Below the pieces are notes generated by a model, which saw nothing but the letters and a program-made list of their open reading frames with translations, searched no databases and had not been told where the DNA came from. This document shows, in pieces, positions 9,116 through 38,208 of a stretch of DNA of 64,000 nucleotides. Source of the DNA: an uncultured Chlorobiaceae bacterium (GTDB lineage: Bacteria; Bacteroidota; Chlorobiia; Chlorobiales; Chlorobiaceae). Made by a program: the position numbers and the translations under genes. Where the stretch lies: positions 62,001 through 126,000 of the forward strand of contig CAIPMW010000076.1 in the NCBI GenBank assembly GCA_903866255.1, read 5' to 3'. Position 1 is the stretch's first letter, and every line of letters begins with the position of its first letter.

Positions 9116-12100
9116 ATGAAGGAGACCCTTTTATCTCTGCTTGAACAGCGCATCCTTGTGCTCGACGGTGCTATGGGCACCATGATCCAGCGCCATAAAC
9201 TCAAGGAGGAGGATTACCGGGGCGCACGGTTTGCCTCGCACTCCCATCCGCTCATTGGCAACAATGATATGCTTGTGTTGACGCAGCCGGAGATCATCTA
9301 CAACCTCCATTGCGACTTTCTTGAGGCTGGCTCGGATATTATCGAAACCAACACCTTCAACGCCAACCCGATATCCCAGGGAGACTACAATGCCGTTGAG
9401 CTGGTGAAGGAGCTGAATGTTGAAGCCACTCGCCTTGCTCGCCGCGCTGCCAACGACTTTACCGCAAAAAATCCCGACAAACCGCGCTTTGTAGCCGGTT
9501 CCATAGGGCCTACGAACAAAACGCTCTCTCTCTCCCCCGATGTCAACCGTCCCGGTTATCGCGCCGTCACCTTCCGGGAGGTGGTCGATAACTACATTGT
9601 TCAGCTCGAAGGTTTGATGGAGGGCGGCGTTGATCTGCTGCTCGTCGAAACCGTCTTCGACACCCTGAACTGCAAGGCGGCCCTTTTTGCCATTGAAGAG
9701 TTTTTCAACCGAACCGGATGGCGTGTGCCGGTGATGGTCTCCGGCACCGTGGTGGATGCAAGCGGGCGCACCCTCTCCGGCCAGACCACCGAGGCTTTCT
9801 GGACATCCATTGCTCACCTGCCGGATCTGCTCTCCATCGGGCTGAACTGTGCGCTTGGCTCAAAGCAGATGCGCCCCTTCATTGCGGCAATGGCGGGCAT
9901 TGCTGAAAGTTATGTGAGTGTTTATCCGAATGCAGGCCTCCCCAATGAGTTTGGAGAGTATGACGACTCCCCTGAATACATGGCCGCCCAGATTGCCGAC
10001 TTCGCCACCTCGGGATTTGTCAATATCGTCGGGGGATGCTGCGGCACCACTCCACAACATATCAAGGCAATTGCGGATGCGGTCAAAAATCTTCAGCCAC
10101 GCAAACGCCCTGCAAAAAAACATGAGCTGCAACTCTCCGGCCTTGAACCCCTCTTTGTCAACCAGACAACCGGCTTCATAAACATCGGTGAGCGCACCAA
10201 CGTCACCGGATCGAAAAAATTTGCCCGTCTCATCAAGGAGGGCAACTACGACGAAGCGCTCTCCATTGCCCGCCAGCAGGTAGAGAGTGGTGCCCAGGTG
10301 ATTGATGTCAATGTCGATGAGGGGATGCTCGACTCCGAGAAGGTGATGAAGGAGTTCCTCAACCTGATTGCCTCCGAGCCCGACATCTCGCGTGTGCCAG
10401 TGATGATCGACAGTTCAAAGTGGTCGGTTATTGAGAGCGGCTTGCAGTGCGTTCAGGGCAAAAGCATCGTGAACTCCATCAGCCTCAAGGAGGGTGAGGA
10501 GCTTTTCAGGGAGAGAGCCCGCAAGGTGTTGCAGTACGGTTCCGCCACCGTGGTGATGGCTTTTGACGAGCAGGGACAGGCCAATAATTATCAGCGCCGT
10601 ATTGAAATTTGCCAACGCGCCTACGATATTCTCACTCAGGAGGTGGGCTTCCCGCCGGAGGATATTATTTTTGACCCCAACGTCCTGACCGTTGCCACCG
10701 GCATTGATGATCATAACAATTACGCTGTTGATTTCATTGAGAGTGTCCGCTGGATCAAGGAGAATCTCCCTTATGCCAAAGTCTCCGGCGGTATCAGCAA
10801 TGTCTCATTCTCTTTCCGTGGCAACGAAACCGTCCGTGAAGCGATGCACGCGGCATTCCTCTATCACGCCATCCACGAGGGTCTCGACATGGGCATCGTC
10901 AATGCCGGACAGCTCGCCATCTATCAGGATATTGAGCCTGAGCTGCTGGTGCGGGTTGAGGATGTGCTGCTCAACCGTCGCTCGGACGCTACCGAACGGC
11001 TGGTCAGCTTTGCCGAGACCATCGCTACCGGCGGAGAAAAGATTGAAGCCAAAGCCGCTGAATGGCGGAGTGCTCCGGTTGAGGAGCGGTTGCGCCACGC
11101 ATTGATCAAGGGCATTGTCGAGTTTATTGAAGAGGATACTGAAGAGGCCCGCCAGCTCTACCCAAGGCCGCTTCAGGTGATTGAGGGGCCGCTGATGGAT
11201 GGCATGAACGCTATTGGCGACCTCTTTGCGGTGGGCAAGATGTTTCTGCCACAGGTGGTGAAAAGCGCCCGCGTCATGAAGCGCTCGGTCGCCTGCCTTC
11301 TGCCCTACATCGACGCAGAGAAGGCGAAGAACAAGGACACCCGCGCAGCCGCCAAGGTACTTCTTGCAACAGTCAAGGGGGACGTGCACGACATTGGCAA
11401 AAATATTGTTGCGGTTGTGCTTGCCTGCAATAACTACGATGTGGTTGATATCGGCGTCATGATGCCCTGCGAAAAAATTCTGGAAGCGGTCGAGCGCGAA
11501 AAGGCTGACCTGCTTGGCCTCAGCGGCCTCATCACCCCGTCGCTTGATGAAATGGTGCATGTCGCCAGCGAAATGGAACGACTCGGCATGAAGATACCGC
11601 TGCTTATTGGAGGTGCCACCACATCGCGAATGCACACTGCGGTCAAAATTGCGCCGGTCTATTCTGGCGCGGTCGTTCAGGTGCTCGACGCATCACGGAG
11701 TGTTCCTGTGGTCAACAGCCTCCTCAATCCAGCGCTCAGCCCCTCGTATATCGAAGCGCTCAACAAAGAGCAGGCGGGGTTGAGAGAGAGCCACTCGTCG
11801 AACAACGCTTCAAAAAAATATCTTTCGCTGGCGGATGCCCGCAAGAACCGCGCTTTACTGCAACCGGTGGCCTACAAACCGCTGAAGCCGGGCATTACTC
11901 TGCTGGAAAATGTTACCATTGGAGAGCTGCGCCCCTATATCGACTGGACACCCTTCTTCATGGCATGGGAGCTGCACGGACGCTACCCGCAGATTCTCGA
12001 CGACGGCAAATACGGCACAGAAGCCAAAAAGCTGCTGAATGATGCCAACAGACTGCTCGACCGGATTGAACAAGAGCAACTGCTCGGCCTGAGAGGTGTT

Positions 12101-30695: not shown

Positions 30696-30791
30696 TGGGA
30701 ACGAGCCATTGTTGAAACCGTCAATCTCCGTTACCTGAAACTGTTGGAGTCGTTGTAAAACGTGGCTCGCTAAACCATGAAAATGACAAGA

Positions 30792-30820
30792 ATGGAGCTT
30801 TCCGAAAACATAGCTTATTG
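30792..30820 (+). repeat. Direct repeat, right copy
   Basis: This is the partner of 30098-30127 (shared core ATGGAG-T-TTCC-AAAACATAGCTT). It lies 97 nt after the DUF2283 stop and 34 nt before the lipoprotein start, within its presumed leader. Confidence 0.5.
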
Positions 30821-30854
30821 GCGTAACCAGCAAGAAACGCGCACAGGAGAACAC

Positions 30855-32186
30855 ATGAAAACCCTGCAATACCTCATCACTCTTCTTTTTTTCTGTTTTC
30901 TTTGCGGATGTAACACTCCGTCGGGCGACAAGCAAGCCACAAAAGACGACAGCACGTTGGGGCAGATGGTGATTATTCCGCAATTCGACTATGTTGGTGA
31001 TTTTCACGAGGGACTTGCCAAAGTCTGGGTTAAAAATAAAAAAACTGATAAATGGGGATTCATTAATAAAAAAGGCAAGTGGGTTATCAAGCCTCAATTC
31101 AATTACGTTGGTGATTTTCATGACGAACTTGCTAAAGTCTGGTTTGGAGATAAAAAAATTGGTAAATGGGGCTTCATGGATAAGCAAGGCAACTGGGTTA
31201 TTAAGCCTCAATTCAATTATGTTGATGATTTTCACGACGGACTTGCTAAAGTCTGGTTCGGGGATAATAAAATTGGTAAATGGGGATTCATGGATAAGCA
31301 AGGCAACTGGGTTATCAAGCCTCAATTCAATTATGTTGGTGATTTTCATGACGAACTTGCTATGGTCAGAAAGGGGGATGATAACACCGGAAAGTGGGGT
31401 TTTATTGATAAAAAAGGCAACTGGGTTATCAAGCCTCAATTCAATAGTGCCGACAGTTTTTCCGAGGGACTTGCCGGTGTCTATCTACCTTCCGTTATTG
31501 ACGATGGTTTCACAACTACTTTTAAGACTCTTGAAAATAGTGGCTTTCTATTTATTGACAAACAAGGCAAAATATATACCTGCAATATCGGTGAATCGTA
31601 TGACAAAAATGTTTCTGAAATGTGGCCGTTTTCAGACGGACTCGCTAAAGTAAAGATGGGGAGCACAAAATTTACAGAATGTGATACATATGGATTTATT
31701 AATAAACAAGGCGAAATGGTTGTCAGACCAAGACTATATATTGCCCAAGATTTTTCCGATGGCTTAGCTGGCGCCTGTGATACACATCGTGAGTTGGTGG
31801 GCCGACAGCTCGTTCCTATTGATAAGTACGACATCATTAAACCAGGTACCATGGTCGTTGGGAATTTCATTGTTAAGAATGAAGGCCGCTTGGACATCAC
31901 TAGTACAAAATGGGGATACATTAACAAACAAGGTATATGGGTTATTCCCCCGCAATTCGATGAGGTCGGTAAGTTTTCTAACGGTCTTGCAAGGATCAGG
32001 ATTGATGTGAAATGGAGGTGGTTGTTCACCGCAAATCAATGGGGGTTCATTGACCAACAAGGCAAAATGGTGATTTATCCGCAATTTGATGATGCACGAG
32101 ATTTTTCCGAAGGTCTTGCTGCGGTTCGAATTGACAGCAAATGGGGATTCATAAGCTGTAAAGCGAACACAAATGAAACGGAATAA
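30855..32186 (+). CDS. WG-repeat lipoprotein
   Basis: The 443-residue protein has a lipoprotein signal ending in the lipobox LCGC and about eight to ten WG repeats of about 40 residues (core KWGFIDKQGNWVIKPQF). Repeats 1 to 5 are nearly identical at DNA level (31000-31460). Later repeats diverge and carry insertions. Such proteins are predicted to be surface or periplasmic binding proteins, but no ligand is known. AGGAGA at 30845-30850 sets the start at ATG 30855. The longer upstream frame includes the direct-repeat copy and is not conserved. Confidence 0.88.
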   Translation: MKTLQYLITLLFFCFLCGCNTPSGDKQATKDDSTLGQMVIIPQFDYVGDFHEGLAKVWVKNKKTDKWGFINKKGKWVIKPQFNYVGDFHDELAKVWFGDKKIGKWGFMDKQGNWVIKPQFNYVDDFHDGLAKVWFGDNKIGKWGFMDKQGNWVIKPQFNYVGDFHDELAMVRKGDDNTGKWGFIDKKGNWVIKPQFNSADSFSEGLAGVYLPSVIDDGFTTTFKTLENSGFLFIDKQGKIYTCNIGESYDKNVSEMWPFSDGLAKVKMGSTKFTECDTYGFINKQGEMVVRPRLYIAQDFSDGLAGACDTHRELVGRQLVPIDKYDIIKPGTMVVGNFIVKNEGRLDITSTKWGYINKQGIWVIPPQFDEVGKFSNGLARIRIDVKWRWLFTANQWGFIDQQGKMVIYPQFDDARDFSEGLAAVRIDSKWGFISCKANTNETE

Positions 32187-32316: not shown

Positions 32317-32547
32317 ATGCACACTCACGATCGTATCACCATTGACCCCAATGTTTGTCATGGTAAGCCATGTATTCGCGGACTCCGTTATCCCGTTGAA
32401 AACGTCCTCGAATGGCTGGCTGGCGGAATGACCATTGATGATATTTTGCGTGACTATGAGGATCTTGAACGGGAAGATATTCTCGCTACGTTAGCTTATG
32501 CCGCTCGACTGGCTCATATCAAGAGCACCAAAGTGTTGGCAGCATGA
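32317..32547 (+). CDS. DUF433 protein, putative antitoxin
   Basis: The 76-residue DUF433 protein has RITIDPNVCHGKPCIRGLRYPVENVLEWLAGGMT and a helix ending in LATLAYAARL. DUF433 proteins carry a helix-turn-helix and normally overlap a downstream DUF5615 PIN-like toxin gene. Here the start of that partner overlaps the stop (ATGA at 32544-32547) but has been cut short. The antitoxin appears intact and may be orphaned. Confidence 0.85.
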   Translation: MHTHDRITIDPNVCHGKPCIRGLRYPVENVLEWLAGGMTIDDILRDYEDLEREDILATLAYAARLAHIKSTKVLAA

Positions 32548-32576
32548 AGTTTCTGGTGAACGGCAAACTCTTGTAG
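32544..32576 (+). pseudogene. Truncated DUF5615 (PIN-like) toxin start
   Basis: The frame that overlaps the DUF433 stop by ATGA encodes only MKFLVNGKLL before a TAG. The position, ATGA overlap and MKFLV opening are those of DUF5615 toxins (usually about 110 residues starting MKFLVD). The rest of the expected sequence is not found in the 80 bases before the hicA-like gene, so the toxin is lost. Confidence 0.5.
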
Positions 32577-32655
32577 CACTGTATGGAAAATGTGTGTTTT
32601 ATCGGTAGTTTATAGGGCAAATTGATTTAGATTTAACTAAAACAAGTATAATACG

Positions 32656-32916
32656 GTGGGGAAGTATTCCAAACTCAGGGAAAGGATTTTGTCAGGTGCT
32701 GCTGACAACAATATTGAGTTTCGGGAACTCTGTCGGCTTCTCATTCGCCTCGGGTTTGAAGAGCGTATCAGAGGAGATCATCATATTTTTGTAAAGGAAA
32801 ACATTGCAGAAATTATCAACTTGCAGCCCAACGGGAGTAAAGCCAAGCCTTATCAGGTAAAGCAAGTCAGATCAATTGTAACGAAGTATATACTTGGAGA
32901 TGCTGATGTCGATTAA
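32656..32916 (+). CDS. hicA: HicA-family mRNA interferase toxin
   Basis: The 86-residue protein has a double-stranded-RNA-binding-like fold with the catalytic motif RGDHHIFVK. Its first 20 residues (GKYSKLRERILSGAADNN) form an N-terminal helix, and the conserved LIRLGFEE-I-G-H order is kept. The start is GTG at 32656, the only start upstream of the domain. It overlaps the following antitoxin gene by 11 nt. The toxin-first order is the normal HicAB arrangement. Confidence 0.8.
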   Translation: MGKYSKLRERILSGAADNNIEFRELCRLLIRLGFEERIRGDHHIFVKENIAEIINLQPNGSKAKPYQVKQVRSIVTKYILGDADVD

Positions 32917-33118
32917 ATACGAATTGATAATCTACTGGAGCAAAGAAGATAACGCTTTCATTGTGGATGTCCCGGAACTTCCCGGGTGTATGGCTGATGG
33001 GGTGACTTATGAAGAGGCCGTAACGAATGCTCAAAGAGTTATAGAGGAATGGGTCGAAACCGCTCATTCACTCGGCAGGCAGGTGCCGGAACCAAAGGGT
33101 CGGCTGATGTATGCGTAA
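32906..33118 (+). CDS. hicB: HicB-like antitoxin
   Basis: The 70-residue protein is an RNase H-fold HicB N-terminal domain: YELIIYWSKEDNAFIVDVPELPGC then GVTYEEAVTNAQRVIEEW. It lacks the C-terminal DNA-binding helix-turn-helix of longer HicB proteins, so autoregulation may differ. ATG at 32906 is chosen for a GGAG 6 nt upstream. It overlaps hicA. Confidence 0.82.
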   Translation: MSIKYELIIYWSKEDNAFIVDVPELPGCMADGVTYEEAVTNAQRVIEEWVETAHSLGRQVPEPKGRLMYA

Positions 33119-34721: not shown

Positions 34722-36104
34722 ATGCAAGTTAAATTCGGTACTGACGGATGGCGCGCAATCATTGCAAAAGATTATACTTTTGATAACCTGAAACTTGCCG
34801 CGCTGGCATCGGCACGCTACTTTCTTGGCCACCCTAACCGGTCGAAAGGGGTGTGCATCGGATACGATACCCGCTTCATGTCAAAGAATTTTGCTGAGTA
34901 TACCGCTGAGGTTTTCTCTTCACAGGGGCTGAAGGTCTTTCTTTCAAACAGCTTTGCCTCTACTCCTGCCGTCTCTCTTTTTACAAGAGCCAGGCAACTT
35001 GCGGGCGGCATAGTTATTACCGCATCCCATAACCCTTCAATATATAACGGATTCAAGGTTAAGGCCTCGTATGGCGGCCCTGCGCATCCAGAGGTGATCA
35101 CTGAAATAGAAGCAAACCTTGAGCTGATTGATCCGGCAACGGAGATCAAGGGTGATAAAAAGCTGATTGAGCTGGTCGATATGAAGGGCTTTTATCTCGC
35201 CTATCTGAAGAGCTGCATTGATGTAGCAATGATACGCGAGTCACGAATAAAAATAGCACACAATGCCATGTATGGCGCCGGGCAGGATATGCTTACCAGC
35301 CTGTTTGATGAATCGATGCTGAGTTGCTATCACTGTAACATTAACCCCGGTTTTGGAGGCATCAATCCTGAGCCAATACCTCAGTATATCGGGGATTTTG
35401 TTGAATTTTTCAAGGAGGTTGAACCTGATGTTGCCATTATCAATGACGGTGATGCTGACAGGATCGGTATGCTTGATGAGAAGGGTGCGTTTGTTGATTC
35501 CCACAAACTCTTTGCCATCATTCTCAAAGACCTGGTTGAGGAGCAACACAAAACCGGTGAAGTTGCCAAAACGTTTGCTCTGACAGACGTGATCGACAAA
35601 ATATGCCATAAACATAATCTCATAATGCATGAACTGCAGGTGGGGTTCAAGCATGTGAGCAAACTCATGACCACCAATGATATTCTTATGGGTGGTGAAG
35701 AGTCTGGCGGCATAGGTATTACCGCCTTTCTGCCAGAGCGCGACGGAGTCTATACCGGACTGTTGATTCTTGAAATGATGATTCGCCGCGATAAAACTCT
35801 TTCGCAACTTGTTGATGAGTTGTATGATGAGTATGGCTTTTTCTGTTATAATCGCCTCGACCTGCATGTCAGCGATGCAAAAAAACAGGGGATTATCGAC
35901 CGTGCTGCAGGCGGAAATCTTGATTCGATTGCTGGATACAACGTGCTGAAGTTCAGTGATCTTGATGGCTACAAATATCATTTTGAGGGTGGGTGGATGC
36001 TTATTCGACCATCAGGCACTGAACCGATATTACGTATCTACTGCGAAGCAGACTCACAGGAGAAGGTCGACAAGGTACTTGCATTTGCCTCCAAACTTGC
36101 CTGA
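34722..36104 (+). CDS. Phosphoglucomutase/phosphomannomutase family enzyme
   Basis: The 460-residue alpha-D-phosphohexomutase has the phosphoserine loop [13 protein letters not shown] (Ser near 102), the metal loop DGDADR (near 242), the sugar loop GEESGG and the phosphate loop RPSGTEP. It interconverts sugar-1- and sugar-6-phosphates for polysaccharide and glycogen metabolism; specificity (glucose or mannose) is unresolved. The start at 34722 fits the family (FGTDGWR). It is a different subfamily from the mutase at 54688. Confidence 0.92.
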
Positions 36105-36132: not shown

Positions 36133-36675
36133 ATGACCTCTGATGATGAGTTGTTCAGATGCCTTGTTACTGAACATCAGGAGATGGTGGTCAATACCTG
36201 TTATCGATTTGTCCTTAACCGTGAAGATGCAGAGGATCTTGCGCAGGATGTCTTTGTTGAGGTTTTCCGATCTCTGGAGCAGTTCCGTGAAGAGTCAAAA
36301 CTTTCAACATGGATATACCGGATTGCCGTTACAAAATCACTTGATCACCTGCGCCGCCTGAACAGGAAAAAGCGCTTCAGTTCACTGAAAAGGATGATCG
36401 GCATCAGCGATCCGGCCGATGATATTGCCGCACCCTCACAAAATAATCCCGCAGAAGCATTCGGAGGCAACGAACGAGCCAGAATATTGCAGGATGCCCT
36501 TCAGTCTCTCCCTGACAGTCAGAAAACCGCATTCCTCCTCAGCAAACAGGAGGGATACAGTAATCAGGAAATTGCAGATATTCTCAAAACATCAGTTTCA
36601 GCCGTCGAATCTCTGATTCACAGGGCAAAAAAAAAGCTTCACGACAAGCTCTATACCTATTATGCAGAACATTAA
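36133..36675 (+). CDS. ECF-type RNA polymerase sigma factor
   Basis: The 180-residue protein has region 2 ([23 protein letters not shown], then [17 protein letters not shown]) and region 4 ([26 protein letters not shown], then [16 protein letters not shown]). This is the SigE/SigW-like ECF group. ATG at 36133 begins just before the conserved domain. The next gene encodes a single-membrane-span protein, as an anti-sigma would, and two Spy/CpxP-like proteins follow, which suggests control of an envelope or metal stress response. Confidence 0.9.
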
Positions 36676-36741
36676 TTTTTTTTCAGAAACCGCAAGTTTT
36701 ACAGAAGCCTGTCGTCCCATACAATGAAACAGGAGAAAATG

Positions 36742-37098
36742 ATGATGAAGTGTCATGAACAGGTAGAGGCTGAGGTGACTGCAACCATGAGGTTGCTTGA
36801 TGAGGCAGAGCATCTTGAGGTTCACCATATTTTCAGGGTGCGGCTCATGCGAAGGGTGGAGGAGAATTTGGTACAAAGAGGGAGAGGCCGGGTCAGTGCA
36901 CGCCTTGATTTTGGGTTGGCGTTTATTGTGCTGCTTCTGCTCATCAATCTTGCGTCGGCTCTTCTGGTTATGAAACCGGAAGAGAGCCAATCGGCGGCAA
37001 CTGTTGGGCAGCTCGCAGATAACCAGAGTGATGATTATTCCAGTCAGGAATTTGCGTACTATGACCAGACCGCCTCTTATGAGCCCGAAAAACCCTGA
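36742..37098 (+). CDS. Single-span membrane protein, possible anti-sigma factor
   Basis: The 118-residue protein has an N-terminal cytoplasmic helical part (CHEQVEAEVTATMRLLDEAEHLE), one membrane segment (FGLAFIVLLLLINLASALLV) and a short acidic periplasmic tail. The layout and position fit a small anti-sigma factor but it lacks the canonical zinc motif HxxxCxxC. Three consecutive ATGs follow an AGGAG; 36742 is the middle choice. Confidence 0.6.
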   Translation: MMKCHEQVEAEVTATMRLLDEAEHLEVHHIFRVRLMRRVEENLVQRGRGRVSARLDFGLAFIVLLLLINLASALLVMKPEESQSAATVGQLADNQSDDYSSQEFAYYDQTASYEPEKP

Positions 37099-37163
37099 CC
37101 CCTGTTTCAATATCTCATGATTATCATGTAACGGTAACACACTCAAATAAAAGGAGATAACTG

Positions 37164-37622
37164 ATGAAAAAGAGATTGATGGTATTCACAGCGTCGGCAT
37201 TGCTGCTTGGATTCAACAGCGCTTTGGCAGCGCCAGGGTGCCCCTCTATGGGTGGATTCGGCGGCAGAGGGCAGGGGTGCGGAGTGACCATGATGGAAGA
37301 GCGTCTCGGACTGAATGAAAAACAGAATGAGAAGATTGATGAACTTCAGTCAAATCATTTCCGAAAAGTATCGGTCGAAAGAAGAAAACTTGCCACCCTG
37401 GAGCGTGAGTTACAAGAGGAGTCGCTGAAAGCAAGCCCGGATGGTAAAAAAGTTGAGCTGCTCTCAGAAAAAGTTGGAAAACAACATGCCGCTCTTGCCC
37501 GCCTGAGAAGCGCCCATGTTGCAGAAATTTCAGCAATACTAACTCCCGAGCAGCGCGATTCCATGCGCACCATGATGGATGATCGGCCTCTGCGGGGCAA
37601 TCAAGGCATCAGACCGAGATAA
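37164..37622 (+). CDS. Periplasmic Spy/CpxP/ZraP-like protein
   Basis: The 152-residue protein has a signal peptide (MKKRLMVFTASALLLGFNSALA) and a Gly/Cys-rich start of the mature part (PGCPSMGGFGGRGQGC). Helices follow with the LTxxQ-like motif (AILTPEQRDSM). These proteins are periplasmic chaperones or metal sensors. The two Cys and Met residues near the N-terminus may bind metal. A good AAGGAG precedes the ATG. A terminator follows it. Confidence 0.85.
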   Translation: MKKRLMVFTASALLLGFNSALAAPGCPSMGGFGGRGQGCGVTMMEERLGLNEKQNEKIDELQSNHFRKVSVERRKLATLERELQEESLKASPDGKKVELLSEKVGKQHAALARLRSAHVAEISAILTPEQRDSMRTMMDDRPLRGNQGIRPR

Positions 37623-37643
37623 CGTTATTGCACAACATCCATG

Positions 37644-37679
37644 AAAAAGCAGGCTTATGGCTATAATGCCTGCTTTTTT
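37644..37679 (+). terminator. Intrinsic terminator after the Spy-like gene
   Basis: An 11-bp perfect stem (37644-37654 with 37668-37678) with a 13-nt loop ends in TTTTTT, 22 nt after the stop. It may attenuate expression of the following related gene. Confidence 0.85.
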
Positions 37680-37710
37680 GTAATGAGAAAAAACTGACAC
37701 TGACCACACC

Positions 37711-38208
37711 ATGAACTTTCTCGCTTCAAAGCGCCTTGTTACAACAGCTCTTGTTCTCCTCGCTGTGTTTAACGTGACACTGCTCGGACTGCTCTTCTGG
37801 CAAAATACCTGCAGAGTACGACCAACACCCGGGGGACATCAATTTGGAGCTCATCCGGCGTTTATGGAGTCTCTGTCCCTCACCCCGTCCCAGGCGGTCT
37901 CGTTCCGTCAACTGCGTCGGCAGCATTTTCTCAAAGTCAGACCCGAGATGGAGAGTATTGCACTGCTGAAACAACAACTGGTGGAAGAATCGCTGAAAGA
38001 GAACCCTGACAAGGCAAAACTTGAAATTATTGCCTCAGGTATCGGCTCTCGCCATATTGCCCTGGAACGTGAAATTGCTGTACATTTTCATGAACTGGCA
38101 AAGGTGTGTACACCGGCGCAACGCGAATCACTGAAACAGGTGCTCAACCAGTTGACTGCTCAGAAACACGCCATGAGGATGGAGAGATGGATGGAGCAAC
38201 GCCAATAA
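37711..38208 (+). CDS. Membrane-anchored Spy/CnrX-like protein
   Basis: The 165-residue protein starts with a single uncleaved membrane segment (TTALVLLAVFNVTLLGLLFW). A periplasmic helical domain of the heavy-metal resistance/Spy type follows, with LSLTPSQAVSFRQLRRQHF and KVCTPAQRESL. It is a paralogue of the preceding protein: both repeat the E-ESLK-NPDK/SPDGK-KVE pattern. This fits a CnrX-type sensor that governs an ECF sigma factor. It lies after the terminator of the first gene. Confidence 0.8.
   Translation: MNFLASKRLVTTALVLLAVFNVTLLGLLFWQNTCRVRPTPGGHQFGAHPAFMESLSLTPSQAVSFRQLRRQHFLKVRPEMESIALLKQQLVEESLKENPDKAKLEIIASGIGSRHIALEREIAVHFHELAKVCTPAQRESLKQVLNQLTAQKHAMRMERWMEQRQ

Follow-up and report, generated by a model that had tools for sequence, protein, structure and literature searches.

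In a window of 64,000 nucleotides from an uncultured Chlorobiaceae bacterium (contig CAIPMW010000076.1, positions 62,001 to 126,000), we describe an operon for an extracytoplasmic function (ECF) sigma factor, a short single-span membrane protein and two proteins of the Spy/CnrX fold, here called Spy1 and Spy2. We propose, with a probability of about 0.6, that these genes form an ECF system responding to envelope stress, and that its regulon takes in chaperones, an ABC exporter and a small RNA dependent on sigma. A first-pass annotation made from the sequence alone had listed the parts and their order (ECF sigma factor, single-span protein without a zinc motif, two Spy/CnrX-fold proteins and a terminator between the latter), and sequence, open reading frames (ORFs) and Pfam matches all agree with this description.

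Sigma factor, single-span protein and Spy2 form a conserved core

To the window we added the 80 best of 200 passing sigma relatives and mapped the neighbours in the resulting 81 loci. The relatives comprise 68 from Chlorobiaceae or from genomes labelled Chlorobi(ales) and 12 from other groups (Ignavibacteria, Neomarinimicrobiota, KSB1, Bacteroidetes/Bacteroidales and one further bacterium); family-wide searches covered 86 family genomes. The sigma factor has 180 residues with regions 2 and 4 (Sigma70_r2, 1.5e-19; r4_2, 8.6e-18), and matches PF04542, PF08281 and TIGR02937 above cut-off; a model resembles ECF sigma structures including SigW and CnrH (4cxf_A). Relatives of it are present in 81 of the 86 family genomes.

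The profile finds a single-span protein after the sigma gene in 80 of the 81 loci; in L112 it missed the frame, which is recognisable by eye, so that the membrane protein, whose absence from orthologous loci would have counted against the first-pass annotation, is present in 81/81. Spy2 comes next in 78/81 loci; in the other three (L062, L063 and L069) the contig ends right after the anti-sigma gene. Consequently, the order sigma, single-span protein, Spy2 is found in 78/78 loci that are not cut by a contig end, among them the 12 outside Chlorobiaceae. Because this order is kept among relatives of several phyla, the arrangement is not due to chance, and because the single-span protein and Spy2 are found in all uncut loci, we define the core as sigma, anti-sigma and Spy2. 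Spy1 is an optional insert, and the conserved partner is the membrane-anchored last gene, Spy2. Two suggestions of the first-pass annotation are not supported: metal sensing (see below; the Cys/Met-rich N-terminus belongs to the optional Spy1) and a system confined to green sulfur bacteria, as the core also occurs in other phyla. The anti-sigma query matched in 82/86 family genomes; irrespective of its place in the genome, the Spy2 profile matched in 87/198 genomes of the phylum, including 1/6 genomes of the same order outside the family. In the 11/11 outgroup loci in which both genes were called, Spy2 starts between -20 and +10 nt from the anti-sigma stop.

The single-span protein resembles class II anti-sigma factors

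The single-span protein is 118-124 residues long, and a Shine-Dalgarno-like AGGAG favours a start at the ATGs at 36739-36745. It has zero Pfam matches, and the Hx3Cx2C zinc motif is absent from 80/80 of the aligned proteins. An Asn in the transmembrane (TM) helix is kept in all 80 (69/69 Chlorobiaceae and 11/11 others) and, by eye, in the 81st (L112). Behind the helix comes a conserved tail in the periplasm, which reads DDYSSQEFAYYDQ in the window. With AlphaFold we folded two natural read-through chains of the relative L042, one joining anti-sigma to Spy2 and one joining sigma to anti-sigma, the anti-sigma being common to both. The L042 anti-sigma is modelled with cytosolic helices at 4-22 and 30-44 and then the TM helix. 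Helix 1 has a high predicted local distance difference test score (pLDDT) regardless of sigma (about 94 versus 92); with sigma in the chain, the score rises from about 83 to 92 in helix 2 and from 72 to 84 in the loop. The five models of the sigma-anti-sigma chain have mean pLDDT values of 67 to 77. This gain in helix 2 and the loop weakly supports binding to sigma. Position and conservation, with the modelled fusion as a suggestive addition, make the single-span protein a candidate anti-sigma factor. Docking of its tail on Spy2 was also considered and is unsupported, since the tail is disordered in the anti-sigma-Spy2 chain; in both L042 chains its predicted pLDDT is about 40-56.

Class II anti-sigma factors bind sigma4 and sigma2 by means of two helices, as described in a section of PMC7406223. 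The short two-helix cytosolic part, the single TM helix and the lack of a zinc motif agree with this class, of which CnrY is a member. They do not agree with the class I zinc anti-sigma factors (ASDI/ZAS), given that the motif is absent (80/80) and that two rather than four cytosolic helices are predicted; the same section of PMC7406223 notes that many ASDI proteins also lack the zinc motif.

Spy2 is a membrane-anchored protein of the CnrX fold

Both Spy1 and Spy2 match PF13801 (Metal_resist) above the curated cut-off of 29.2 (50.7 and 51.2 bits, respectively) and are the sole proteins above it in their own genome, an assembly of 2.80 Mb in 117 contigs. In Spy2, Asn21 in the TM helix is kept in 66/66 Chlorobiaceae and 12/12 outgroups, Gln61 is invariant (78/78), and Cys133 and Gln137 are invariant in 77/77, the L043 protein being truncated at these positions. 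Window Spy1, which has Cys/Met residues near its N-terminus, carries Leu at the position of Cys133 (ILTPEQ, by eye). The periplasmic domain of L042 Spy2 was predicted with block means mostly of 93-98. A Protein Data Bank (PDB) sequence search with Spy2 gave no meaningful match; a fold search was more productive, and in it the L042 model resembled STV, CnrX, NccX, CpxP, ZraP and Spy. Against CnrX (2y3b), the Spy2 model of the relative reaches a TMt of 0.76, and VIA-align gives a Z of 9.7, middling for a helical fold, at an rmsd of 3.0 over 107 aligned positions. The PF13801 matches and the modelled four-helix hooked hairpin place the protein in the Spy/CnrX fold.

The slot between anti-sigma and Spy2 varies. 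Both neighbours are present in 66 Chlorobiaceae loci, of which 27 (including the window and L108) have a Spy-domain gene, 31 have an empty slot and the remaining 8 have a gap of 300-360 nt, with a short secreted ORF in at least five (L088, L099, L100, L101 and L103). The single such ORF tried, that of L101, matched DUF1104 below cut-off (E 0.013), and by eye a DUF1104-like piece is fused ahead of the Spy domain in other Spy1 proteins. This secreted module (DYS..ELA.LRG.M) is fused N-terminally in the accessory Spy proteins of L047, L052-L054, L137 and L139. Because the module occurs alone or fused to a Spy domain, the accessory slot is modular.

A shared predicted promoter motif marks the operon and further genes

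The first-pass annotation had proposed a search for a shared promoter motif, and one was found: CAAG-N16-CGTC, with exact spacing and at most one change in the first block, lies in 67/69 Chlorobiaceae sigma/anti-sigma gaps, the exceptions (L083 and L101) being one position off. Shape and spacing fit ECF promoters, with CGTC as the -10 element. In the window, CAAGTTTTACAGAAGCCTGTCGTC is the top match of a scan of the whole sequence. To score sites we used a weight matrix of the two conserved blocks, trained solely on the Chlorobiaceae gap sites, with reversed, reverse-complement and shuffled sequences as controls. In 33/81 loci the 400 nt ahead of sigma hold a site scoring at least 12 (reversed, 0/81; reverse complement, 4/81); these loci include Ignavibacteria (L110, 24.1; L116, 16.4), Neomarinimicrobiota (L111 and L113), KSB1 (L109) and L105. 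That sigma might never control its own gene was considered and rejected, as the motif lies ahead of sigma in many relatives; in the window's own lineage there is no motif ahead of sigma, and just 28 nt separate it from a phosphomutase-like gene with which, in the window, it is perhaps co-transcribed.

Four loci (L105, L107, L111 and L113) have a divergent Spy-like gene right upstream of sigma, and in three of them a motif lies on the strand of that gene. In the Neomarinimicrobiota L111 and L113, a second motif site is directed at this gene, and L105 has a strong same-strand site near its own. In the Ignavibacteriales locus L110 a further motif (score 19.9) precedes a 535-residue ORF (9343-10947, minus strand).

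Ahead of the spy genes within the operon no site reached a score of 10 (Spy1, 0/24; Spy2, 0/66), which is consistent with a single transcript from the anti-sigma promoter. The spacer between spy1 and spy2, with a fold energy of -21.4 kcal/mol over its full length, was folded for the window and nine relatives, and its hairpin may lower spy2 output. Scans for sigma-70 promoters and terminators gave output at chance level and did not list this hairpin. The anti-sigma/spy2 spacers of L042, L046, L049 and L050, which have no spy1, carry a short inverted repeat of the CCAGCCT.ATGCTGG type without a long T-run.

An exact-motif search of the family genomes gave a match in 68, often the operon site, and we examined 20 regions around sites outside the operon. 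Sites were found ahead of Spy-like secreted proteins (L137, L138, L139, L140, L144 and L148, of which L137, L139 and L148 were confirmed by Pfam; L140 has a second site), TolC-like proteins (L141, L142, L146 and L147, and L135 by context) and small secreted Rap1a-like proteins (by Pfam in L145 and by eye in L136), and the site of L143 is a candidate promoter of the RNA described below. Six CAAGCTTTACAAGAGCATGTCGTC hits (L129-L134) lie in a coding frame, which we take to be ATPase-like, and were rejected as chance. One-mismatch hits in the window's own genome are mostly intragenic.

The motif precedes a MacAB-like pump and a candidate structured RNA

The TolC-like proteins lead to a pump operon that encodes a TolC protein (PF02321, an outer membrane efflux protein), an HlyD/RND-type adaptor and a protein with MacB_PCD, ABC and FtsX domains, i.e. 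the composition of MacAB-TolC. Because adaptor and MacB proteins score below the curated MacA/MacB equivalog cut-offs, we term it a MacAB-like pump. In the own genome, a one-mismatch motif lies 43 nt ahead of the tolC ATG. Among 94 tolC loci from 83 genomes, 44 have a site scoring at least 12 (reversed, 0/94; reverse complement, 0/94; shuffles, 0/465), all of them 42-78 nt away from the ATG apart from a single one at 23.

A further site (score at least 8) lies just after macB in 12 of the 20 loci examined; the sequence behind it has no conserved ORF and, in most, a strong terminator at its end. An exact motif at C80:36588 in the own genome, at first taken for chance, is a candidate promoter for an RNA. 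A closing stem of CAACAAC...GTTGTTG, a loop resembling GATGATTGATGA and the terminator are common to fifteen sequences. Across them 92.2% of cells are paired and 12/24 pairs changed on both sides (19 such cells), values each reached by 0/500 shuffles, and sliding the partners lowers pairing to 42-61%; the covariation is mostly in the terminator helix (10/14 pairs), with 2/10 in the closing stem. The RNA model matches in 73/86 genomes. Genomic context was tested on the best 70 of 89 matches, 15 being training sequences: 55/70 lie on the same strand within 6 kb downstream of tolC, an upstream site scores at least 8 with the matrix in 50/70 (reversed, 5/70; reverse complement, 0/70; shuffles, 4/350), and the loose form CA[AG]G-N16-CGTC is found upstream in 64/70 (reversed, 2; reverse complement, 0). 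The gene after the RNA is rpsL in the own genome and other genes elsewhere, which makes the RNA unlikely to be a leader. The own-genome locus and six relatives have no Rfam match at gathering score. Motif, structure and terminator make it a candidate regulatory small RNA.

Proposed mechanism and alternatives

We suggest the following working model. The short two-helix anti-sigma would tether the ECF sigma factor to the membrane and pair there with Spy2 as a receptor of the CnrX/Spy fold; that the two neighbouring single-span proteins each keep one polar Asn in a greasy helix suggests that this pairing would be intramembrane. Spy2 would bind misfolded envelope protein or respond to another periplasmic stress, possibly with readout via its invariant Cys, which would loosen the pair and free sigma. 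Freed sigma would then transcribe from CAAG-N16-CGTC its own anti-sigma-spy operon as feedback, its own gene in many relatives, and, as further targets, Spy-like chaperones, the TolC-MacA-MacB-like exporter and the structured small RNA downstream of macB. Export of porphyrin by the pump, as a speculation, would suit a chlorophyll-rich phototroph.

Several observations weigh against this model. The gain in helix-2 confidence with sigma is small, and in the anti-sigma-Spy2 chain the tail is not docked on Spy2 (tail pLDDT about 40-47). Homology to CnrY was undetected when the 80-row profile was compared by hhalign with a single CnrY sequence, a weak query (probability 0.7%). The tolC sites score below 12 in 50/94 loci and are weak or absent in a second genus (g2, Chlorobaculum-like). 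Moreover, the genomes are related, and the counts are therefore not independent and are inflated by kinship. Finally, sigma and anti-sigma are missing from G039 (96% complete), possibly because of an assembly gap, although RNA and motif are retained there, and a second ECF factor in the window's genome (L004) could share the motif.

The first-pass annotation had left open an envelope or a metal module, and of these envelope stress is the best reading. A genuine CnrYXH-type metal sensor, in which Spy2 histidines would bind Ni, Co or a similar metal and free sigma while the pump exports the metal, would share the architecture and fold seen here, and the conserved His72, His125 and Cys133 of Chlorobiaceae Spy2 as well as the Cys/Met residues of Spy1 would fit it. 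The Ni/Co ligands of CnrX, which we take to include H42, H46 and H119, also include E63 and M123, as named in PDB titles. In the hhalign register the equivalents of H42, H46, E63 and M123 are not conserved in Spy2, and the H119 equivalent, H125, alone is kept, as His in 62/66 Chlorobiaceae and lost in half of the outgroups (6/12 retain it). With this ligand conservation, and with a motif-linked pump that is of the ABC-type MacB-like kind rather than an RND metal pump, we rejected the metal-sensor reading as highly improbable. An RseA-like route, with anti-sigma cleared by regulated proteolysis and Spy1 and Spy2 as mere regulon chaperones, draws on the motif ahead of Spy-like genes elsewhere, which makes them plausible targets, and on the undocked tail; we consider it unlikely, since Spy2, unlike Spy1, is part of the operon in all complete loci, abuts the anti-sigma stop in the outgroups and has in its TM helix an Asn that corresponds to the anti-sigma one.

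The envelope-stress model also assumes that this sigma factor reads the motif. Judged by region 2, four genes of the own genome belong to the sigma-70 family; besides the window's, these are a 299-residue primary-like factor (L002) and two short ECF-like ones (L003 and L004). L004 (G000:C87:100868-104071) is followed by a gene for a 262-residue membrane protein. If L004 or another regulator read the motif, the pump and the RNA would lie outside this regulon, which would agree with the presence of L004 and its own membrane protein in the same genome, with the motif retained in G039 and with G058 (L145), where a motif-bearing Rap1a-like gene adjoins a homologue (by eye) of the L004 membrane protein; we regard this as quite improbable, as the motif accompanies the sigma operon into other phyla, lying there ahead of sigma, and fits ECF promoters in shape and spacing. 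The RNA, in turn, might be just the 3' untranslated region or terminator of macB, given that its start adjoins the macB stop codon and that an intrinsic terminator closes it. The frequency of the loose motif upstream, the conserved closing stem and loop, and copies away from tolC in five genomes (G036, G040, G043, G045 and G076), which also have the motif, make this an unlikely explanation. Going beyond the envelope-stress model, we offer, tentatively and with some doubt, the view that this is an old ECF pathway of Chlorobiota, Bacteroidota and neighbours, with a membrane-anchored Spy-fold chaperone as receptor that holds the anti-sigma via an intramembrane Asn-Asn contact, sensing misfolding or thiol-reactive stress rather than metal and controlling chaperones, a MacAB-like exporter and a small RNA that would be the first sigma-dependent one known from green sulfur bacteria.

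Feature coordinates and neighbouring sequence

Table 1 Features of the locus and of the associated RNA; positions refer to the window unless another sequence is named
Feature	Position	Strand	Basis
Phosphomannomutase/phosphoglucosamine-mutase-like gene	34722..36104	+	Pfam PGM_PMM domains; upstream of sigma
ECF sigma factor, regions 2 and 4	36133..36675	+	PF04542, PF08281
ECF-type promoter motif CAAGTTTTACAGAAGCCTGTCGTC ahead of anti-sigma gene	36693..36716	+	Top match of window-wide scan
Candidate single-span anti-sigma factor without zinc motif	36739..37098 (start alternatively 36724)	+	No Pfam family; alignment; AlphaFold models of relative
Spy1, predicted secreted Spy/CpxP-like chaperone, optional accessory gene	37164..37622	+	PF13801 2.6e-13, PF07813 1.9e-7
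Intrinsic-terminator-like hairpin and T-run in spy1/spy2 spacer	about 37644..37679	+	Sequence; spacer folds
Spy2, membrane-anchored, CnrX fold, predicted sensor	37711..38208	+	PF13801 1.8e-13; conservation; model of relative
Candidate structured RNA following macB, with an ECF-type motif of its own	G000:C80:36413-36559 (= L243:614-760)	-	Own genome

An RPSGTEP motif is found upstream of sigma in 67/80 loci. Elsewhere in the window, a 469-residue ORF (30777-32186) has repeated WGF(I/M)(D/N)K.G.WVI.PQF units that are WG-repeat-like by eye, and three successive short ORFs of 76, 86 and 74 residues (32317-33118) are DUF433- and HicA/HicB-like by eye.

Comparison with known systems

The closest known systems are CnrYXH of Cupriavidus metallidurans pMOL28 and NccYXH, with which the window system shares an ECF sigma factor, a short zinc-less single-span anti-sigma (here a candidate) and a membrane-anchored CnrX-fold sensor; the first-pass annotation had pointed to such Cnr-like logic in a different gene order, and this holds, the order being sigma-anti-sigma-sensor here and Y-X-H in Cnr. 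In the account given in part of PMC4803752, sensor and short anti-sigma jointly hold the ECF factor, loss of cnrY or cnrX alone frees sigma in Cupriavidus, and the regulon includes a tripartite efflux pump, a further likeness. The window system differs from CnrYXH in not retaining the set of Ni/Co ligands and having a sensor Cys, in the Asn that is invariant in both TM helices (the CnrX TM segment has none), and in the motif-linked MacB-like ABC pump, chaperones and RNA. These two invariant Asn residues open the proposed signalling step to point mutation. According to a section of PMC7406223, a class I anti-sigma factor is encoded next to only 6% of Bacteroidetes ECF factors, and other classes may dominate there; the single-span protein and Spy2 provide a concrete, widely conserved candidate for a non-class-I anti-sigma factor with its sensor.

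The papers that we searched describe neither an ECF regulon for green sulfur bacteria nor a comparable ECF-Spy operon or such a small RNA; with the present analysis these bacteria gain a predicted ECF regulon with exact promoters. The pump shares with the MacAB-TolC exporter a TolC, an HlyD-family adaptor and a MacB_PCD/ABC/FtsX protein in one operon and differs in scoring below the equivalog cut-offs; a passage of PMC8277102 reports export of macrolides, lipopeptides and protoporphyrin by the E. coli pump. With E. coli RpoE/RseA and Cpx/Spy, the system would share a membrane anti-sigma that holds sigma, Spy/CpxP-fold chaperones among the targets and small RNAs dependent on sigma, as MicA, RybB and MicL are on sigmaE. 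In contrast to these, a Spy-fold protein, likely the receptor, lies in the sigma operon itself, the operon has no RseB- or CpxA-like gene, and the RNA has no Rfam match. ECF-dependent small RNAs outside Proteobacteria are represented by FoxJ and related sigmaE-dependent RNAs of Fusobacterium nucleatum, as reported in part of PMC11005410; the likeness is one of description, and the phylum is another. If our reading is true, the RNA described here, a structured family without a counterpart in Rfam, would carry sigma-dependent small RNAs into a further phylum.

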